Shown here piece after piece: positions 49,162 to 55,944 of a stretch of DNA of 64,000 nucleotides (its first letter is position 1; each line of letters opens with the position of its first letter). The notes under the pieces were generated by a model, which ran no database searches, had not been told where the DNA came from, and worked only from the letters and a program-made list of their open reading frames with translations. The stretch is from assembly GCF_029714945.1 (NCBI RefSeq), contig NZ_CP121634.1, forward strand, positions 8,143,001 through 8,207,000. The letters run 5' to 3'. The position numbers were made by a program, and so were the translations under genes. The stretch is from Bradyrhizobium sp. CIAT3101 (lineage in GTDB: Bacteria > Pseudomonadota > Alphaproteobacteria > Rhizobiales > Xanthobacteraceae).

Positions 49162-49878
49162 CTACTCCGTGGTGCTGACTTCCCAGGTGGCATGGCGCAC
49201 GCCGGACGCATGCTGGAGGTCGGTCGCCACCGCGTTCAGCTCGTTCGGATCGACCGCGGTCGCCACCAGCTTGGCGACGATCTCCAGAATGTCGTCACCG
49301 ATCTCAACCACGTCGACATCGGCCACCGGATATTTCGCGGCCTCGAGCTTGTCGACGAGACGGTCGCGCATGTCGGGCAAGGCTTCGGTGGTGACCGCAA
49401 GCTTGAAGTAATAGGTCGCCTCCAGCGCCTTCACATCCAGCGGGATGCGGTTGATGGCGTTGACCAGCGGGCGCAGCATCGTGTTGCCGGCGATCACGAA
49501 CACGGTCAGCGCCGCCGCCTGCGCGACCATGTCGGCCCCGGCGCAGGACCCCACGGCGGCCGAGGCCCACAGCGTCGCCGCGGTGTTGAGCCCGCGCACG
49601 TCCATACCCTGCTTCATGATGACGCCGGCGCCCAGGAAGCCGATGCCGGAGACGACATAGGCGATCACCCGCACCGCACCGTCGGCGCCGTCCAGATGCA
49701 TGGCGAGATCGACGAAGGCCGCAGCGCCGACCGCGACCAGCACATTGGTGCGCAGGCCGGCAGTACGTTGCCGATATTGACGCTCGGCGCCGATCAGCGT
49801 GCCCAGCACGAAGGCTGTGAACAGGCTGACCAGCGTGTCGGCGAAATCGGCGATCTGGAAGGTCGTCAGGAACCGCAT
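49162..49878 (-). CDS. MgtC/SapB-family membrane protein
   Basis: This 238-residue protein has four to five N-terminal membrane helices and a cytoplasmic ACT-like C-terminal domain. Diagnostic motifs are GTLIGAERQYRQRTAGLRTN (residues 26-45) and GIGFLGAGVIMKQG (79-92). MgtC-like proteins regulate, rather than carry, Mg and affect the F-ATPase in pathogens; the C-terminal domain probably senses a ligand. Here the gene is separate from the zinc genes, being 31 bases from the WD40 stop with its own start. Confidence 0.88.
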   Translation of the reverse strand: MRFLTTFQIADFADTLVSLFTAFVLGTLIGAERQYRQRTAGLRTNVLVAVGAAAFVDLAMHLDGADGAVRVIAYVVSGIGFLGAGVIMKQGMDVRGLNTAATLWASAAVGSCAGADMVAQAAALTVFVIAGNTMLRPLVNAINRIPLDVKALEATYYFKLAVTTEALPDMRDRLVDKLEAAKYPVADVDVVEIGDDILEIVAKLVATAVDPNELNAVATDLQHASGVRHATWEVSTTE

Positions 49879-49908: not shown

Positions 49909-50928
49909 TCAAAGCTCCAGCAGACCGCCGTCCCCATTTTCGTCGGCGAAGGCCAGCAGCGTGCCCTTGGCGTTCCAGGCGAGCCCGGCCACCGGCGGGG
50001 TGCCGTTGCGGCGGACCAGGATCTCCGCGCCGTCCTCCAGCCGCACCATCAGCACGGTGCCGTCACTGTAGCCGGCGGCGAGGATGTCGTTCTTCGGATG
50101 GCAGGCGACGACCGACACGCGCGCCTGCAGTGGCGCGAGCATCGCGGGCTCCTTGCCCATCGGGCCGTCCTTGCTGGCGAACGGCCAGATGATGACGGTG
50201 TCGGCACCCGAGGTCGCCAAGCCCTTGCCGCCCACGCTCCAGGACATCGAGCGGACACGGCCGGGATAGCCGGTCATGCGCATGTGCCTGTTGTCGGCGA
50301 GCCGCCAGCCGTGCAGCGCCGCCTCGTGCATGGTGGTGACCAGGAATTTGTTGTCCGGGCTGAAGGTGACGCCGAGATGCGAGCCGGCCCAGGGCAGGAA
50401 TTCGGCCGACCCTTCCATGTTGGGAAACCACAGCGTCGCGCCGTTGTAATGCGCGATCGCGAGCCGCAGGCCCTTCGGTGCGAACGCGAGCCCGCCGACG
50501 GTCGAGGGCACCTCGAGCGATTTTTCCTCGGCCTTGCCGCTCTTGACGGTCGCGGTCTTGCCGGCCGACCAGGCGTAGGCGCCATCCGGATGCACCGCCA
50601 CCGCGTCGATCCAGCGCCGCTTCGGATCGGTGGCGAGCAGCGTCACCTCGCCCTTGGCATCGAGCGAGACGACCTTGCCGTCATCGCCGCCCATCACGAG
50701 GCGCTTGCCGTCCGAGGCGGTCGAGAGAATGCCGCCACTATGCACGGCAACCGTCGTGATCTCGCCCTTGGCGTCGACGAATGCGACGTTTTCCTCCCCG
50801 CCGACGAAGGCGGCGCGGGGGCCAAGGAAATGCACCGAGGTCACGCCGATGCCGAGCGTCACGGGCTTGACGCGATCGGTGACGGAGACGATCGAGGCGG
50901 AATCGGGGGCCGGCGTAAACTCTTTCAT
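49909..50928 (-). CDS. WD40-type beta-propeller protein in the zinc operon
   Basis: This 339-residue protein is made of about seven recurring blocks (for example LVMGGDDGKVVSLDAKGEVT, PDGAYAWSAGKTATVKSGKA, LRLAIAHYNGATLWFPNMEG, GLATSGADTVIIWPFASKD, NDILAAGYSDGTVLMVRLED), each ending in a hydrophobic-Trp/Val-like strand, as in a WD40 propeller. It has no signal peptide, so it is cytoplasmic. Its ATG at 50928 overlaps the CobW stop, so it is the last gene of the Zur-box operon and should be made with the zinc importer. No enzymatic motif is visible. A scaffold or zinc-delivery platform for the CobW GTPase is the simplest inference. AztD, a known zinc chaperone, is periplasmic, so it differs. 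Confidence 0.8.
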   Translation of the reverse strand: MKEFTPAPDSASIVSVTDRVKPVTLGIGVTSVHFLGPRAAFVGGEENVAFVDAKGEITTVAVHSGGILSTASDGKRLVMGGDDGKVVSLDAKGEVTLLATDPKRRWIDAVAVHPDGAYAWSAGKTATVKSGKAEEKSLEVPSTVGGLAFAPKGLRLAIAHYNGATLWFPNMEGSAEFLPWAGSHLGVTFSPDNKFLVTTMHEAALHGWRLADNRHMRMTGYPGRVRSMSWSVGGKGLATSGADTVIIWPFASKDGPMGKEPAMLAPLQARVSVVACHPKNDILAAGYSDGTVLMVRLEDGAEILVRRNGTPPVAGLAWNAKGTLLAFADENGDGGLLEL

Positions 50929-51974
50929 CACGAGACGATGCAGCTCTCAAAGCCCTCGCGAATGGCCTTTTCCGGCAATTCGCGGCCGATGAAGACGAGG
51001 CGGCTCTCGCGCGGCTCGCCGTCCTTCCATTTCCGCTGGTGGTTGCCCTCCAGCATCATGTGAACGCCCTGGAACACGTAGCGGTCATCATCGTCGTGGA
51101 AGGCGAGGATGCCCTTGGAGCGCAGGATCTTACCGCCTTCGACCTGCACCAGGTTCTGGAGCCAGGGCATGAACACGTTCGGATCGAGCGGCTTGTCGGT
51201 CTTGAGCGACAGCGATTGCATGTCCTCGTCATGATAGTGCTTCAGGCCGTGGCCGTGATCATGGTGGTGATGATGGTCGTGGCCGTGATGGTGGTCATGC
51301 TCGTGATCATGATCGTCGACCTCGAGGAAATCAGGCTCGATGTCGAGGATGCGGTCGAGGTCGAACGCGCCGCGATCGAGCACGTCGGCCAGTGCGACCG
51401 AGCAGCGCTCAGTGCGATGCAGCTTGGCATAGGGGTTGATGCCGCGGATGCGGGCTTCGACCTCGGCAAGCTCGGGCTTGGTGACGAGATCGGTCTTGTT
51501 CAGCACGATGACGTCGGCGAAGGCGATCTGGTTCTTGGCCTCGGGTGCATCCTTGAGCCGGTCGGCCAGCCATTTGGCGTCGGCAACAGTGACCACCGCG
51601 TCGAGCCGCGCGTTCTTCTGCACGTCCTCGTCGACGAAGAAGGTCTGGGCGACCGGCGCCGGATCGGCAAGGCCGGTGGTCTCGACGATGATGGCGTCGA
51701 ACTTGCCCTTGCGCTTCATCAGACCGTCCATGATGCGGACGAGGTCGCCGCGCACGGTGCAGCAGATGCAGCCGTTGTTCATCTCGAACACTTCCTCATC
51801 GGCGCCGATGATGAGGTCGTTGTCGATGCCGATCTCGCCGAATTCGTTGACGATGACGGCGTATTTCTTGCCGTGGTTTTCCGACAGGATGCGGTTCAAC
51901 AGCGTGGTCTTGCCGGCACCGAGATAGCCGGTCAGGACGGTCACGGGAATTTTGGACGCGGTCGCTTCAGACAT
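50928..51974 (-). CDS. CobW/COG0523-family zinc-linked GTPase
   Basis: This 348-residue P-loop GTPase has Walker A in TGYLGAGKTTLLNR (about residues 15-28), the invariant metal motif CICCTVRGDL (about 69-78), switch segment ETTGLADPAPV and guanine motif LNKTDLV. A long His-Asp loop (about 220-250) follows, then the C-terminal CobW domain. In this family the CxCC site and His loop bind zinc, and some members insert the metal into target enzymes under zinc shortage. The position in a Zur-box operon points to the ZigA/YeiR/ZNG1-like branch rather than cobalamin synthesis. Confidence 0.93.
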   Translation of the reverse strand: MSEATASKIPVTVLTGYLGAGKTTLLNRILSENHGKKYAVIVNEFGEIGIDNDLIIGADEEVFEMNNGCICCTVRGDLVRIMDGLMKRKGKFDAIIVETTGLADPAPVAQTFFVDEDVQKNARLDAVVTVADAKWLADRLKDAPEAKNQIAFADVIVLNKTDLVTKPELAEVEARIRGINPYAKLHRTERCSVALADVLDRGAFDLDRILDIEPDFLEVDDHDHEHDHHHGHDHHHHHDHGHGLKHYHDEDMQSLSLKTDKPLDPNVFMPWLQNLVQVEGGKILRSKGILAFHDDDDRYVFQGVHMMLEGNHQRKWKDGEPRESRLVFIGRELPEKAIREGFESCIVS

Positions 51975-52030
51975 AAGAACTCCGGGGTCGGCTTGCCGCG
52001 CGACGCGAGGCGACGGGGTGGCCCCCTGCC

Positions 52031-52897
52031 CTAATGGTCAAGCGCGCTGGTCAGGGCCTTTATATTGTGCCTGACCATGTCAATGTAAGTGGGTGCAGGC
52101 CCCTTTTCGCCGGTCAAACCGTCCGAAATCAGGGTCCCGCCGACCTTTGCGCCGGTCTCGGCTGCGATCCGCCGGATCAGGCGGTCGTCGCTGATATTTT
52201 CCAGGAAAACCGCCGGGATCCTCGCGGCCTTGACCTGGCCGATGATGGCGGCGATGTCCCGCGCGCTGGGCTCGGTTTCGGTGGAAACGCCGAGGGGGGC
52301 CACGAACTGGACGCCATATTCGGCGGCGAAATAGCCGAAGGCATCGTGGGTCGAGATGATCTTGCGCCGCTCGGGTGGGATTTTGGCCACGGCCTCGCGG
52401 ACCTCCCGGTCGAGCGCTTCGAGCTTGTCCAGATAGGCCTTTGCCTGCGTGCGGAAGAGTTCGGCATCGTCGGGGTCGGCCGCGACCAGCGCGTTGGCGA
52501 TGTCGGTCACATAGACCTTGGCGTTGGGCACGGATTGCCAGGCATGGGGGTCTGCGGCCGAGCCGAGCTTCAAAGGCGCGATGCCGGCGCTCGCGGTCAC
52601 GATCGTCGCCTTGCTGCCTGCGGATTGAACCAGCCGCGGCAGCCAGCCCTCGAGGCCGAGCCCGTTGACGATGACGAGTTTTGCATCCGCGATCCGCTTC
52701 GCATCGCTCGGGGCCGGCGTGTAGACATGGACGTCGCTGTCGGGACCGACCAGCGTGGTCACGTTGACCCGGTCGCCGCCGATGGTGCGGACGAAATCGC
52801 CGAGGATCGAGAAGCTCGCAACGATATTGAGCCGCTCGGCGGCATGCAGCGGCGACGCGATCAGCAGCACAAAAAGCAGAAGGAAGCGCATCGTCAT
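52031..52897 (-). CDS. znuA: Zinc ABC transporter substrate-binding protein
   Basis: This 288-residue protein has a signal peptide (RFLLLFVLLIASPLHAAE) and the two-lobed cluster A-I fold with a rigid helix. Likely ligands are the His in SDVHVYTP, the His in ADPHAWQS, the His in STHDAFGYF, and the Asp in ISDGLTGEKG. The third His, rather than Glu, is the zinc-type choice; Mn receptors of this cluster usually have Glu there. It lacks the long His-rich loop found in Escherichia ZnuA, as AztC-type receptors do. Its start overlaps the znuB stop as ATGA. Confidence 0.9.
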   Translation of the reverse strand: MTMRFLLLFVLLIASPLHAAERLNIVASFSILGDFVRTIGGDRVNVTTLVGPDSDVHVYTPAPSDAKRIADAKLVIVNGLGLEGWLPRLVQSAGSKATIVTASAGIAPLKLGSAADPHAWQSVPNAKVYVTDIANALVAADPDDAELFRTQAKAYLDKLEALDREVREAVAKIPPERRKIISTHDAFGYFAAEYGVQFVAPLGVSTETEPSARDIAAIIGQVKAARIPAVFLENISDDRLIRRIAAETGAKVGGTLISDGLTGEKGPAPTYIDMVRHNIKALTSALDH

Positions 52898-53763
52898 GCT
52901 TCCAGATGCCGGCCGGGAAACAGCTGCCGGACGATACCACCGACGCGGCCGAACAGGACGGAGACGATGTAGAACACCGTCGCCACGAGGATGATCGCAG
53001 GGCCGGAGGGCACGCGGGTCTGGAATGACAGCACGAGGCCGGCATAGCCCGAGACGGCGGCAGCGACGACCGCGATGCAGATCATCACCGTCAGATCGCG
53101 CGACCAGAACCGCGCGATGCCGGCCGGCAGGATCATCAATCCCACCGCGAGCAGAGTGCCGAGCGCCTGAAAGCCGTTGACGAGGTTGATGACGACGAGC
53201 GCGAGGAAGGCGAGATGCGCGGGGCCGCCGGCGCGGCTGACCGTGCGCAAGAACAAGGGATCGACGCTCTCGATCACCAGCGGCCGGTAGATCACTGCGA
53301 GCACCAGCAGCGTGACCGTGGCGTTGAAGGCGACCACCAGCAGCGTCTGATCGTCCATCGCGAGGATGTTGCCGAACAGCACATGCAAGAGATCGATATT
53401 GGTGCCCTTGATCGAGACGATGGTGACGCCGAGCGCCAGCGAAGCCAGATAGAAGGTCGCAAGCGAGGCATCCTCCTTCAACCCCGTCGAGCGCGCGACC
53501 ACGCCGGCGAGAATCGCGACCGCAAAGCCGGCGATCAACCCGCCGGCCGTCATCGCGAACAGATTGAGGCCGGACAGCAGGAAGCCGACGGCGGCGCCCG
53601 GCAGAATTGCGTGCGCCATGGCGTCACCGACGAGGCTCATCCGCCGCAACATCAGGAACACGCCGATCGGGGCGCCCGCCAGCGAGAGCGCGATCACCGC
53701 GGCAAGCGCCCGCCGCATGAATTCAAACTCGGTGAATGGGCCGATCAGCGCGTCATAAATCAT
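52894..53763 (-). CDS. znuB: Zinc ABC transporter permease
   Basis: This 289-residue protein has about eight hydrophobic segments of the ABC-3 type permease family (PF00950). The segment GDAMAHAILPGAAVGFLLSG near residue 60 is the conserved coupling region, and LVVINLVNGFQALGTLLAVG lies in the second half. It forms a homodimeric channel for ZnuA-delivered metal. The start lies six bases after the znuC stop, and its stop overlaps znuA. Confidence 0.92.
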   Translation of the reverse strand: MIYDALIGPFTEFEFMRRALAAVIALSLAGAPIGVFLMLRRMSLVGDAMAHAILPGAAVGFLLSGLNLFAMTAGGLIAGFAVAILAGVVARSTGLKEDASLATFYLASLALGVTIVSIKGTNIDLLHVLFGNILAMDDQTLLVVAFNATVTLLVLAVIYRPLVIESVDPLFLRTVSRAGGPAHLAFLALVVINLVNGFQALGTLLAVGLMILPAGIARFWSRDLTVMICIAVVAAAVSGYAGLVLSFQTRVPSGPAIILVATVFYIVSVLFGRVGGIVRQLFPGRHLEA

Positions 53764-53769
53764 CTGCTA

Positions 53770-54528
53770 TCACGCCGCCCGCGAGCGCCCGTCCTCGGCA
53801 CAGGCGGTGGCGCTGTCGTCGAAGGCTTCGCACATCCGCATCGCAACCAGCAGGTTTTCCGGCGTCAGCACCTCCGCCGTCGGCCCCCAGGCCACGGGGC
53901 CGCGGGCCAGCACCAGCGTCTCGCTGAAATGGGTGCGCACCATCTCCATGTCGTGCAGCGCGGCGAGCACGGTGCGGCCCTCGCCATGCCAGTGTTTCAC
54001 CAGCGCAAGCAGGTCGGCCGTGGTCTTGCTGTCGATGGCGTTGAAGGGTTCGTCGAGAACGATCAGGCGCGCATCCTGGAGCAGCACACGCGCGAACAGC
54101 ACGCGCTGCATCTGCCCGCCCGAGAGCGTGCCGATCGGACGGTTCTCGAAACCGTTGAGCCCCACCGACGCAATCGCGCGAAGAATCTTTTCGCGCGCGG
54201 CCTTGCCGATGCCGCCGAACAGACCCGTCCCGCGCCACAGCCCGGTGCCGACGAAATCGAACACCGAGATCGGAAAGCTGCGGTCGATGTCCGCGCTCTG
54301 CGGCAGATAGGCGATGTCGCGGCTATCCAAGCCGCCGAGATGGATGCTGCCGTCGAGCGGCCGGAGGATGCCGACGATGCCGCGCAGCAGCGTCGACTTG
54401 CCGGCGCCGTTGGGACCGATCACGGCGACCAGCGCGCCGGGCGCGACCTCGCCGTTGAGATGGTGCACGGCCGGATGGCGGTCATAGCCGAGCGTCACGT
54501 TGTGAAAGTGTATGGCCGCCATGGTCAC
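53770..54528 (-). CDS. znuC: Zinc ABC transporter ATP-binding protein
   Basis: This 252-residue ATPase has Walker A in IGPNGAGKSTLLRG (about residues 37-50), the ABC signature LSGGQMQRVLFARVL, Walker B in ARLIVLDEPFNAID and the switch His in LAALHDMEMVRTHF. It powers zinc uptake with ZnuB. Its ATG overlaps the His-rich gene stop (54525-54528). It is near the promoter end of the operon, as usual for a leading ATPase in Zur-controlled units. Confidence 0.94.
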   Translation of the reverse strand: MTMAAIHFHNVTLGYDRHPAVHHLNGEVAPGALVAVIGPNGAGKSTLLRGIVGILRPLDGSIHLGGLDSRDIAYLPQSADIDRSFPISVFDFVGTGLWRGTGLFGGIGKAAREKILRAIASVGLNGFENRPIGTLSGGQMQRVLFARVLLQDARLIVLDEPFNAIDSKTTADLLALVKHWHGEGRTVLAALHDMEMVRTHFSETLVLARGPVAWGPTAEVLTPENLLVAMRMCEAFDDSATACAEDGRSRAA

Positions 54529-54791
54529 CTCATCGCCAGAAAGACGACGCCCCAGAGCACGGCGCAGACGGCGACGGCGGCCGACAGGCGGCCGGCCATG
54601 GTCATACGCAGGATCGACCAGGGCGCCTCCTGGGCCGGGTGCGGCGAGGCCGCGTCATGGACATGGGCGTGGGTGTGGTCGTGCCCATGCGAATGCCCGT
54701 GGTCATCATCATGGGAATGGCCGTGGGAGTGGCCAGGCGAATGACCGTGGGCATGGTCGTGATGATGGGCGTGGGACGCGGCGGGAACCAT
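54525..54791 (-). CDS. His-rich small membrane protein at the head of the zinc operon
   Basis: This 88-residue protein has an N-terminal half packed with His, Asp and Gly (about 22 His among the first ~55 residues, in HSHGHSH- and DHGHSHGHDHT-like runs), followed by a single hydrophobic helix (GRLSAAVAVCAVLWGVVFLA). The His part could lie on the periplasmic or cytoplasmic side; the sequence does not decide. ATG at 54791 lies ten bases after the Zur-like box, and the stop overlaps znuC. It is probably a zinc-collecting or buffering module for the importer. No named family is recognised. Confidence 0.82.
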   Translation of the reverse strand: MVPAASHAHHHDHAHGHSPGHSHGHSHDDDHGHSHGHDHTHAHVHDAASPHPAQEAPWSILRMTMAGRLSAAVAVCAVLWGVVFLAMR

Positions 54792-54800
54792 GCCCAAGAC

Positions 54801-54813
54801 GTTATATTATAAC
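54801..54813 (-). promoter_or_regulatory. Zur-like operator of the zinc operon
   Basis: GTTATATTATAAC is a near-perfect inverted repeat (GTTATA-T-TATAAC), closely matching the alphaproteobacterial Zur box (GTTATA-rich palindrome). It contains the TATAAT sequence of a likely -10 element on the minus strand and sits ten bases upstream of the His-rich ORF. A zinc-loaded Zur dimer bound here would block the leftward operon. The zur gene is not in the window. Confidence 0.85.
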
Positions 54814-54835
54814 ATTACCCCTGTCCACGGCCGGC

Positions 54836-55336
54836 TCAGGGCTTGCCGATCACCATCGCGATGGCGGCCGCCAGGAACGGGAACGGCACCGAGACCGCGC
54901 AGCGGAACCAGACGAAACGGGCCGGCATGAACGGGATTTCCCACAAAATCACCCGCTGGAAGGCGAACAGGGCCCAGGCCACGACATAGGCGACCACCTG
55001 GGGCACCCCGCCGCCCGACTTCAGCGCCACCGTGCCAATCGAAAAGCCGATCACGGGGCCGCCAGGCGTGGCGGCGCCGGCGACCACGGCGGTCGCAACC
55101 CCGAGCCAGCCGCTGTCCGGCCCGAGCCAGCCGGTGATCACCTCCTGCGGGATGATGGCGGCGATATAGCCGGAGCCGATCACGCCGAGCGCGATCCGCG
55201 GCACGATGTTGATGAAATCCATCGAGCCTTCGCGCAGCGAGGCCTTGAACACCGGAGGGCCGCGACGGAAGGCGATCAGGCCGACGCCGAACACCGAGCC
55301 CCACAGCAGGATATCGATGAGGAGCGCCGCGCTCAC
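54836..55336 (-). CDS. Half-size permease, second of a coupled pair
   Basis: This 166-residue membrane protein has about four hydrophobic segments and the loop GAATPGGPVIGFSIGTVALK, with ILWEIPFMPARFVWFRCAVS later. It resembles one half of the PF03773 (YraQ/ArsP-like) permease family. It starts with GTG at 55336, overlapping the stop of the preceding gene. Together the two would make up a full-length two-lobed transporter. The substrate is unknown. It ends about 45 bases before the zinc operon start, with the Zur box between. Confidence 0.75.
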   Translation of the reverse strand: MSAALLIDILLWGSVFGVGLIAFRRGPPVFKASLREGSMDFINIVPRIALGVIGSGYIAAIIPQEVITGWLGPDSGWLGVATAVVAGAATPGGPVIGFSIGTVALKSGGGVPQVVAYVVAWALFAFQRVILWEIPFMPARFVWFRCAVSVPFPFLAAAIAMVIGKP

Positions 55337-55944
55337 GCCGCCTCCTCGTCGCTGTCGCGCTTCGGATAGACCCGGACGTAGACGAAGCGGCCGAGCGCGC
55401 CGGCGAGCACCGGCAGCGGCAGCGAGATCAGGATCCGCCACAGCGTGAAGTCGGTGCCCATGATCGGGATTTCCCAGGCGACTGCGCGGCCGTAGCCGAT
55501 CAAGGTCCAGCTCACGACCATGGCGATGGTGGCGCCGAAATCGGCGCCGACCGCGAGCAGCGCGCTCGCCACGGGATAGGCGGTGAAGGGACCGCCGGGC
55601 AGGATCGCACCGAAGGCGGTGCCGATCAGAAGGCCCATCAGGCCGGATTTAGGCCCAAGCGAGCGCGAGACTTTTTCGTGCGGCAGGATTTCCGAGATGA
55701 AGGCGCCGAGCAGGCAGCCCGCCAGTACGCGCGGCAGGATGCCGCCGAACAGCGAGAGGTCGTGGGTGAGAATGTCGAGAACGCCATCGGCGCCGTCGCG
55801 CCGCCAGACCAGCGCTGCACTCACTGCCACCAGCGCTGCGATGATGATCGTCGACCAGCCGATCGGCTTGCGGACACGCCCCGGCCGCGGCTCGGACTCA
55901 GCGTCCTCGGCAGGCGCAGGACTTTTCGGGGAAGAATCTGACAA
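55333..55944 (-). CDS. Half-size permease, first of a coupled pair
   Basis: This 203-residue membrane protein has a charged disordered start of about 30 residues, then about five hydrophobic segments. It shares the loop GAILPGGPFTAYPVASALLA and VAWEIPIMGTDFTLWRILIS with the next gene, aligning in order. The two look like the two inverted or repeated halves of a YraQ/ArsP-like (PF03773) permease made as separate chains. The partner start overlaps this stop, so equal synthesis is expected. Its role near the zinc operon is unclear; metal or arsenite-organic export are family options. Confidence 0.75.
   Translation of the reverse strand: MSDSSPKSPAPAEDAESEPRPGRVRKPIGWSTIIIAALVAVSAALVWRRDGADGVLDILTHDLSLFGGILPRVLAGCLLGAFISEILPHEKVSRSLGPKSGLMGLLIGTAFGAILPGGPFTAYPVASALLAVGADFGATIAMVVSWTLIGYGRAVAWEIPIMGTDFTLWRILISLPLPVLAGALGRFVYVRVYPKRDSDEEAA

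Follow-up and report, generated by a model that had tools for sequence, protein, structure and literature searches.

A putative two-module zinc uptake operon in Bradyrhizobium sp. CIAT3101: an AztABC-like importer with a membrane microprotein and a COG0523 GTPase–WD40 pair

Cluster A-I zinc importers are described as composed of an ATPase, a permease and a binding protein, to which AztD can be added in the periplasm. The present analysis concerns a six-gene operon on the minus strand of a 64,000-nucleotide stretch of Bradyrhizobium sp. CIAT3101 (contig NZ_CP121634.1, positions 8,143,001 to 8,207,000; hereafter the window), which encodes, from 5′ to 3′, a single-helix microprotein, the ATPase, permease and substrate-binding protein (SBP) of a zinc ATP-binding cassette (ABC) importer, a COG0523 GTPase and a WD40 propeller. 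In the passages of PMC6689063 used here, aztD and aztABC of Paracoccus denitrificans are both described as being under Zur. Prokaryotic COG0523 subfamily-5 genes cluster with WD40-repeat, znuABC and creatinase genes, and several of these clustered genes lie downstream of predicted Zur sites (Haas 2009, PMC2770081). Thus, the link between COG0523, WD40, znuABC and Zur has been published since 2009, and the core claim of the initial annotation of this DNA, an extended zinc operon joining these elements under one Zur-like box, is not new. The passages of Haas 2009 on this clustering (PMC2770081) mention neither the microprotein, nor a complete co-occurrence of WD40 and GTPase, nor a link that persists after the WD40 gene has moved.

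The preferred reading, given a probability of about 0.55, is a Zur-repressed zinc uptake operon of two modules, an AztABC-like importer with the microprotein as a subunit and a client-serving GTPase–WD40 pair. In the first module the ATPase, permease and SBP of an AztABC-like branch would be joined by the single-helix microprotein as a small permease subunit with its N-terminus inside, whose cytosolic His tail would, in the window's lineage, offer zinc a landing site at the inner face of the transporter. In the second module the COG0523 GTPase, which itself has a His-rich loop, would hand scarce zinc to clients, and the propeller would most likely recognise these clients or position the GTPase. 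At low zinc, Zur would leave the promoter box and all six genes would be made. The import and GTPase roles derive from the protein families; the subunit role, the delivery of zinc to clients and its relay are inferred. If this is correct, a conserved extra membrane subunit changes the study of cluster A-I importer assembly and gating, sets AztD-type importers apart and gives studies of rhizobial zinc uptake a small handle that is simple to delete, while the tied GTPase–WD40 pair makes COG0523 zinc clients and their partner testable.

The importer and its microprotein

The importer proteins score above the Pfam gathering thresholds for cluster A-I (PF01297, 295 bits over 29; PF00950, 177 over 20.1). 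Their best NCBIfam models are those of AztABC, with all three below the curated cut-offs (AztC 304 of 350 bits, AztB 255 of 280, AztA 212 of 220), and no cut-off is reached for ZnuA, ZnuB or ZnuC (70 of 268, 83 of 284 and 98 of 306). The genes had been labelled ZnuCBA; they do encode a zinc-type ABC importer, sharing the PF01297/PF00950/ABC_tran architecture and a Zur box with ZnuABC, but the scores lie nearer AztABC and the label was dropped. In a permease tree of 84 rows, whose bootstrap is not settled, the nine AztD-bearing loci form one clade (100/100) inside a 30-row branch (97/99) shared with the window's family and with microprotein-bearing permeases. Model scores and tree placement together identify the window's importer, at the sequence level, as AztABC-like without AztD. 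It resembles the AztABCD system of P. denitrificans in its best models and in this supported common branch, and differs in being headed by the microprotein and in having no AztD match. The NCBIfam scan gave no AztD match among nine operon and neighbour proteins; a Sinorhizobium AztD query found none in the strain's own genome and AztD was found in 0 of 192 class-level genomes, both in searches run without a positive control. The single PF01297 match in the host genome, a single contig of 9.37 Mb, is the SBP of this operon, and thus no second cluster A-I importer was found.

The microprotein is read as 88 residues from the ATG at 54791, the open reading frame (ORF) list giving 90 residues from a TTG. 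It is His-rich as first annotated, although a hand count gives 20 His rather than about 22. Conservation resides in the C-terminal half, which reads approximately WSILRMxxxxRLAAAxAxxAxLWAxVxxAMR, with one Arg and one Trp invariant across 25 chosen diverse copies. The tail varies from 0 to about 20 His, and the helix is kept in relatives with few or no His, including class-level relatives, where the tail is mostly short or His-free. A helix profile built from 94 family cores only and applied to 53 class-level permease loci recognised the ORF just upstream of the ATPase gene in 39 of them at E≤1 (23 at E≤0.01), with one off-site match at E≤1 and none at E≤0.01 among 4,732 ORFs of the class loci. 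An iterated profile, many rows of which came from these same loci, matched 43 of the 53. In the helix region of 33 near Bradyrhizobium loci the median dN/dS is 0.19 in frame and 1.7–1.8 in the shifted frames, and a wider set of 69 loci has an in-frame median of 0.25 (mean 0.45). The microprotein is under purifying selection.

The family carries no name in the collections examined. Pfam gave no family at E≤0.1 for the 25 members, and NCBIfam gave a single weak match for each of 2 of them, to YshB (0.0041) and CrgA (0.082); for the window's copy neither database gave a family at E≤0.001, the one Pfam match being at chance level (E 0.16). A database search returned 319 relatives at E≤1e-3, and among the 120 matches listed all are unnamed or called hypothetical protein and none has a Pfam domain. 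Three records annotate it as a hypothetical protein, from Skermanella (46 residues), Thioclava GXIMD2076 (43 residues) and Comamonas (46 residues), the last being the only betaproteobacterial case (profile E 0.13). The gene tables of Neorhizobium, Gemmobacter and Thioclava GXIMD4216, which are incomplete, omit it although the ORF is there. The microprotein is undescribed in the literature searched, which left out most subscription journals, so that its absence from print is not established.

In 96 of 97 unique tails, which come mostly from related species, the N-terminal flank of the helix carries more Lys and Arg than the C-terminal flank; the remaining tail has equal numbers. Under the positive-inside rule this bias predicts an N-in orientation with the His tail in the cytoplasm, where it may bind zinc. 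The number of His is higher in WD40-bearing genomes (one-sided Mann-Whitney p 0.002, ignoring relatedness and using hand-entered WD40 labels), which is only a hint. KdpF, CydX, AcrZ and CbiN are small membrane subunits encoded or working with a larger membrane complex. The microprotein resembles them as a tiny membrane protein beside a larger complex and differs in having no family match; it is best read as a small subunit belonging to zinc importers of the AztABC type.

The microprotein was compared with AztD in 19 plasmid-collection loci out of 66 records found. It is present in 0 of 9 AztD-bearing and 8 of 10 AztD-free loci, an exclusion that the Fisher p of 7e-4 overstates, since the AztD loci form one clade. 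The two AztD-free loci without it are one from Roseomonas, in which no ATPase was found, and a distant copy on a Bradyrhizobium plasmid. The tree label MICRO on locus L303 is wrong, the match lying inside another gene, and the locus is counted as lacking the microprotein. Hydrophobic ORFs upstream of the ATPase gene in some AztD loci (Klebsiella plasmid) lack the motif and are unmatched by the microprotein model. The best reading of these sequences is that the microprotein was lost once where AztD appeared. A wider proposal is tentative and on the doubtful side: an ancestral single-helix AztABC subunit of 30–90 residues would have been lost with AztD, and in Bradyrhizobium and its relatives it would have gained a cytosolic His tail that takes up incoming zinc and relays it, without a break between membrane and client, through the GTPase–WD40 pair. 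On a Gemmobacter plasmid (locus L290) a Fur-family gene, the microprotein, the importer, GTPase and WD40 genes and two small hypothetical genes stand in one row; the ATPase gene there is unlisted and matches in two overlapping pieces.

The GTPase–WD40 pair and its link to the importer

The GTPase displays the Walker A motif GYLGAGKT and a CxCC motif (Pfam cobW 203.7 bits, CobW_C 95.9) and stays below the NCBIfam cut-offs of the named COG0523 equivalogs ZigA (204.5 of 600), CobW (202.3 of 332.1) and PRK11537 (226 of 361), the last presumably being YjiA. It is one of five COG0523-superfamily GTPases in its own genome at E≤1e-5. Judged solely by its clustering with WD40 and znu genes, it would belong to Haas subfamily 5. 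Eukaryotic ZNG1/CBWD proteins are zinc transferases. They are set beside the window's GTPase by description only, through the passages of Haas 2009 (PMC2770081), which assign the majority of eukaryotic COG0523 proteins, including the human member, to subfamily 5, and the word WD40 is absent from the one ZNG1 paper searched (PMC10642216).

The closest named matches of the WD40 protein are from Bradyrhizobium (top match 99%), and its AlphaFold2 model is confidently all-beta (mean pLDDT 93.1, pTM 0.89), in keeping with a propeller. By eye no signal peptide can be made out in the sequence. Sequence-profile matches in the PDB are to generic WD40 proteins, AztD being absent among the best 60 of 380, and no NCBIfam family is reached at E≤0.001, AztD included, which agrees with the first view that the WD40 protein is not AztD.

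The WD40 protein is tied to the GTPase, as proposed at the outset: each of the 141 distinct WD40-bearing genomes also encodes the GTPase, the strain's own genome being counted in both of the draws made. In the class draw (192 genomes; WD40 at E≤1e-30, GTPase at E≤1e-75) WD40 occurs in 30 and the GTPase in 34, with both in 30 and neither in 158; genomes G206, G224, G240 and G296 hold the GTPase only, at E 6e-97 or weaker. In the family draw (119 genomes; WD40 at E≤1e-20, GTPase at E≤1e-75) the numbers are 112 and 113, with both in 112, the GTPase only in G031 and neither in 6. Fisher p values, relatedness ignored, are 4e-31 for the class and 2e-9 for the family. The tie is stricter than in the passage of Haas 2009 (PMC2770081), holding also where the WD40 gene has moved.

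Gene order was followed in 38 family-level loci, hand-picked across genera from 112 genomes, after exclusion of two of the 40 fetched (L055, holding a second box of the strain itself, and L074, a paralogous locus). The ABC importer, GTPase and WD40 genes stand together in 24 of the 38, and the GTPase gene adjoins the WD40 gene in 30. The WD40 gene is detached in the other 8; in all of these the microprotein, ATPase and permease genes still precede the GTPase gene, the SBP being matched in seven (not in L306). At class level, where all 30 WD40 match places outside the strain's own genome were fetched from 29 genomes, the GTPase gene lies beside the WD40 gene in 27. The remaining three are L106, whose sequence opens at the edge of a contig, and L105 and L130, whose genomes encode the GTPase at another place. 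The whole importer is also present at 8 of the 27 adjacent pairs. Among 80 named loci, biased as the nearest relatives retained, the two genes are adjacent in all 80 and less than 20 nt apart in at least 65; 70 show the complete operon, and five of the ten others have less than 5 kb of upstream sequence. A Devosia plasmid locus carries AztD near a GTPase–WD40 pair. The modules are thus separable, and AztD and WD40 need not replace each other.

Clustering of neighbouring ORFs and Pfam scans of 20 neighbours gave no consistent partner as a recurrent client enzyme beside the pair, and no creatinase-type family was among the 20. In genome G088 (locus L074) several COG0523 matches and Zur-like boxes accompany another WD40 copy, which is distant (36%), and the GTPase–WD40 pair may have been duplicated there within a zinc cluster. 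On a Sinorhizobium numidicum plasmid (L286, 764–3041) aztD follows a COG0523 gene whose product shares 60% identity with that of the window, and occupies the position of WD40 at other loci. A joined-query search returned 101 proteins, some with both domains, as possible natural GTPase–WD40 fusions. The nine that were read are, in our judgement, likely frameshift products: most have Arg-rich stretches, at the joint or in other places, that look like sequence read in the wrong frame, and P0121, found on a single contig, diverges from related proteins precisely at the end of the GTPase part.

Putative Zur control and rival explanations

The Zur-like palindrome reported at the operon front is indeed there as a near-perfect Zur box, 8 nt before the ATG. 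It matches GTTATATTATAAC exactly and is the only exact match in the window, where 4 matches at ≤3 mismatches are found against 1.05 expected, one of the four overlapping the exact site. At ≤1 mismatch the 9.37 Mb genome contains two copies of the 15-mer TGTTATANTATAACA. The box probably overlies the −10 region. In 23 of the 24 complete-operon family loci a box at ≤2 mismatches is found no more than 700 bp ahead of the first importer gene. Of 70 named relatives, 52 have 7–8 nt between box and ATG and 69 lack a Shine-Dalgarno (SD)-like tetramer before the ATG, and none is seen in the window; on both counts the mRNA is likely leaderless. Among four Fur-family proteins of the genome one, at G000:C1:9278830, has Zur as its best model at 115.5 bits, below the cut-off of 167, its gene lying away from the operon. 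Zur control in this strain is suggested by these sequences. The second genomic copy of the box (L055, 7765–10640) precedes genes for a 143-residue protein and a TonB-dependent receptor, which is plausibly a Zur target and a candidate outer-membrane zinc receptor.

Several findings weigh against the two-module reading. The scattering without linkage to znu or CobW that the initial annotation named as grounds for rejection does occur in part. The WD40 gene lies away from the GTPase gene in 8 of 38 family loci, and 19 of the 27 adjacent class pairs have no importer gene by a script rule that asks for a score above 120 on the same strand and no more than 7 kb away. Two of these 19 are unclear (L116, with an SBP fragment where the contig ends; L122, with a divergent importer of weak similarity), and a ≤2-mismatch box was seen upstream of WD40, no more than 3.5 kb away, at only 2 of them. 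With pairs lacking the importer and mostly the box, a zinc role of the GTPase–WD40 pair is less secure outside the family. In the genomes with a detached WD40 gene such a box stands at only 2 of 8 importer operons, and none is found in the 12-kb stretches around the eight detached genes. The family-only microprotein profile leaves 14 of 53 class loci unmatched and the iterated one 10. The exclusion of the microprotein by AztD is one event on the tree, so that 0 of 9 does not represent nine independent cases. The structure prediction suggested for a WD40–CobW complex was made on a joined chain (P0121, 690 residues, alignment rows mostly single-domain) and gave a confident propeller but no fixed arrangement of the two parts (mean pLDDT 84.7, pTM 0.55), which does not speak against binding. 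None of the nine fusions read is convincing.

The position of the microprotein at the head of a zinc operon is open to other explanations. The pathway first proposed, in which an N-out His-rich protein captures zinc, Znu imports it and a GTPase on a WD40 scaffold delivers it, accounts for a His-rich tail beside a zinc importer and for genes under one box. It is improbable, as the conserved part of the protein is the membrane helix, retained in class-level relatives when the tail is short or His-free, and as the charge bias places the tail in the cytoplasm, with no evident signal peptide; a capture protein finds no support here. A leader or regulatory peptide, serving as a leaderless mRNA start, a protease adaptor or a permease inhibitor and limiting import when zinc returns, for example through zinc on the His tail, would agree with the first place in the operon, with the spacing of box and ATG, with the missing SD-like tetramer and with a tail that is cytosolic by charge. 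A pure leader would not need the conserved helix residues and the low dN/dS, which indicate an intramembrane partner, although this argument does not extend to a membrane inhibitor; overall, a role of this kind is rather unlikely.

For the second module, the WD40 protein and the GTPase may form a stable complex with the propeller as a client-binding arm, or act separately in one pathway. The complete co-occurrence in the genomes searched, the 4-nt gene overlap in the window and the short gaps in the named loci argue for a complex, but the joined chain did not settle into one arrangement and the genes are separated in the 8 family loci, which leaves it slightly short of an even prospect. Both the WD40 protein and AztD (PMC6689063, in the passages used) are propellers tied to AztABC-like importers, and a cytosolic zinc carrier analogous to AztD could be imagined. 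The WD40 protein has no NCBIfam AztD match, AztD is not among the best 60 of 380 PDB profile matches, and the Devosia locus holds AztD near a GTPase–WD40 pair, with no need for mutual replacement. No zinc site was identified in the propeller, the model not having been searched for one. A carrier role is very improbable. The two-module operon remains preferred, with the microprotein in the membrane beside the permease and the GTPase–WD40 pair serving clients in the cytoplasm, each as proposed above.

Coordinates and genome neighbourhood

All six leftward genes of the initial annotation are present on the minus strand behind the single box. Their junctions comprise three 4-nt overlaps, a 6-nt gap and a 56-nt gap between the SBP and COG0523 genes.

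Table 1 Features of the zinc operon, in window coordinates
Feature	Position	Strand	Remarks
WD40 gene	49909–50931	−	Pfam WD40; last of six genes; no evident signal peptide
COG0523 (CobW-type) GTPase gene	50928–51974	−	Pfam cobW and CobW_C; GCICC motif, His-rich loop
SBP gene (periplasmic zinc-binding protein, AztC/ZnuA-like)	52031–52897	−	Pfam ZnuA
Permease gene of zinc importer (AztB/ZnuB-like)	52894–53763	−	Pfam ABC-3
ATPase gene of zinc importer (AztA/ZnuC-like)	53770–54528	−	Pfam ABC_tran
Microprotein gene	54525–54791	−	His-rich N-terminal tail and conserved C-terminal single membrane helix; 88 residues
Zur-type palindromic operator, 15-mer	54800–54814		Ends 8 nt before the first ATG
Candidate −35 element TGGACA	54822–54827	−	By eye; −10 would fall within the Zur box

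Downstream of the WD40 stop, 30 nt away on the same strand, lies an MgtC-family gene (49162–49878; PF02308 and PF21770), which is found 3′ of WD40 in 10 of the 38 family loci and could be a seventh gene of the operon. Just upstream of the operon, also on the same strand, stand two adjacent half-length ArsP_1-type permease genes (54836–55944). The one of 201 residues matches the C-terminal half of PF03773, below the cut-off, and the one of 203 residues the N-terminal half. Queries with both half-genes were matched in 47 of the 80 named loci.

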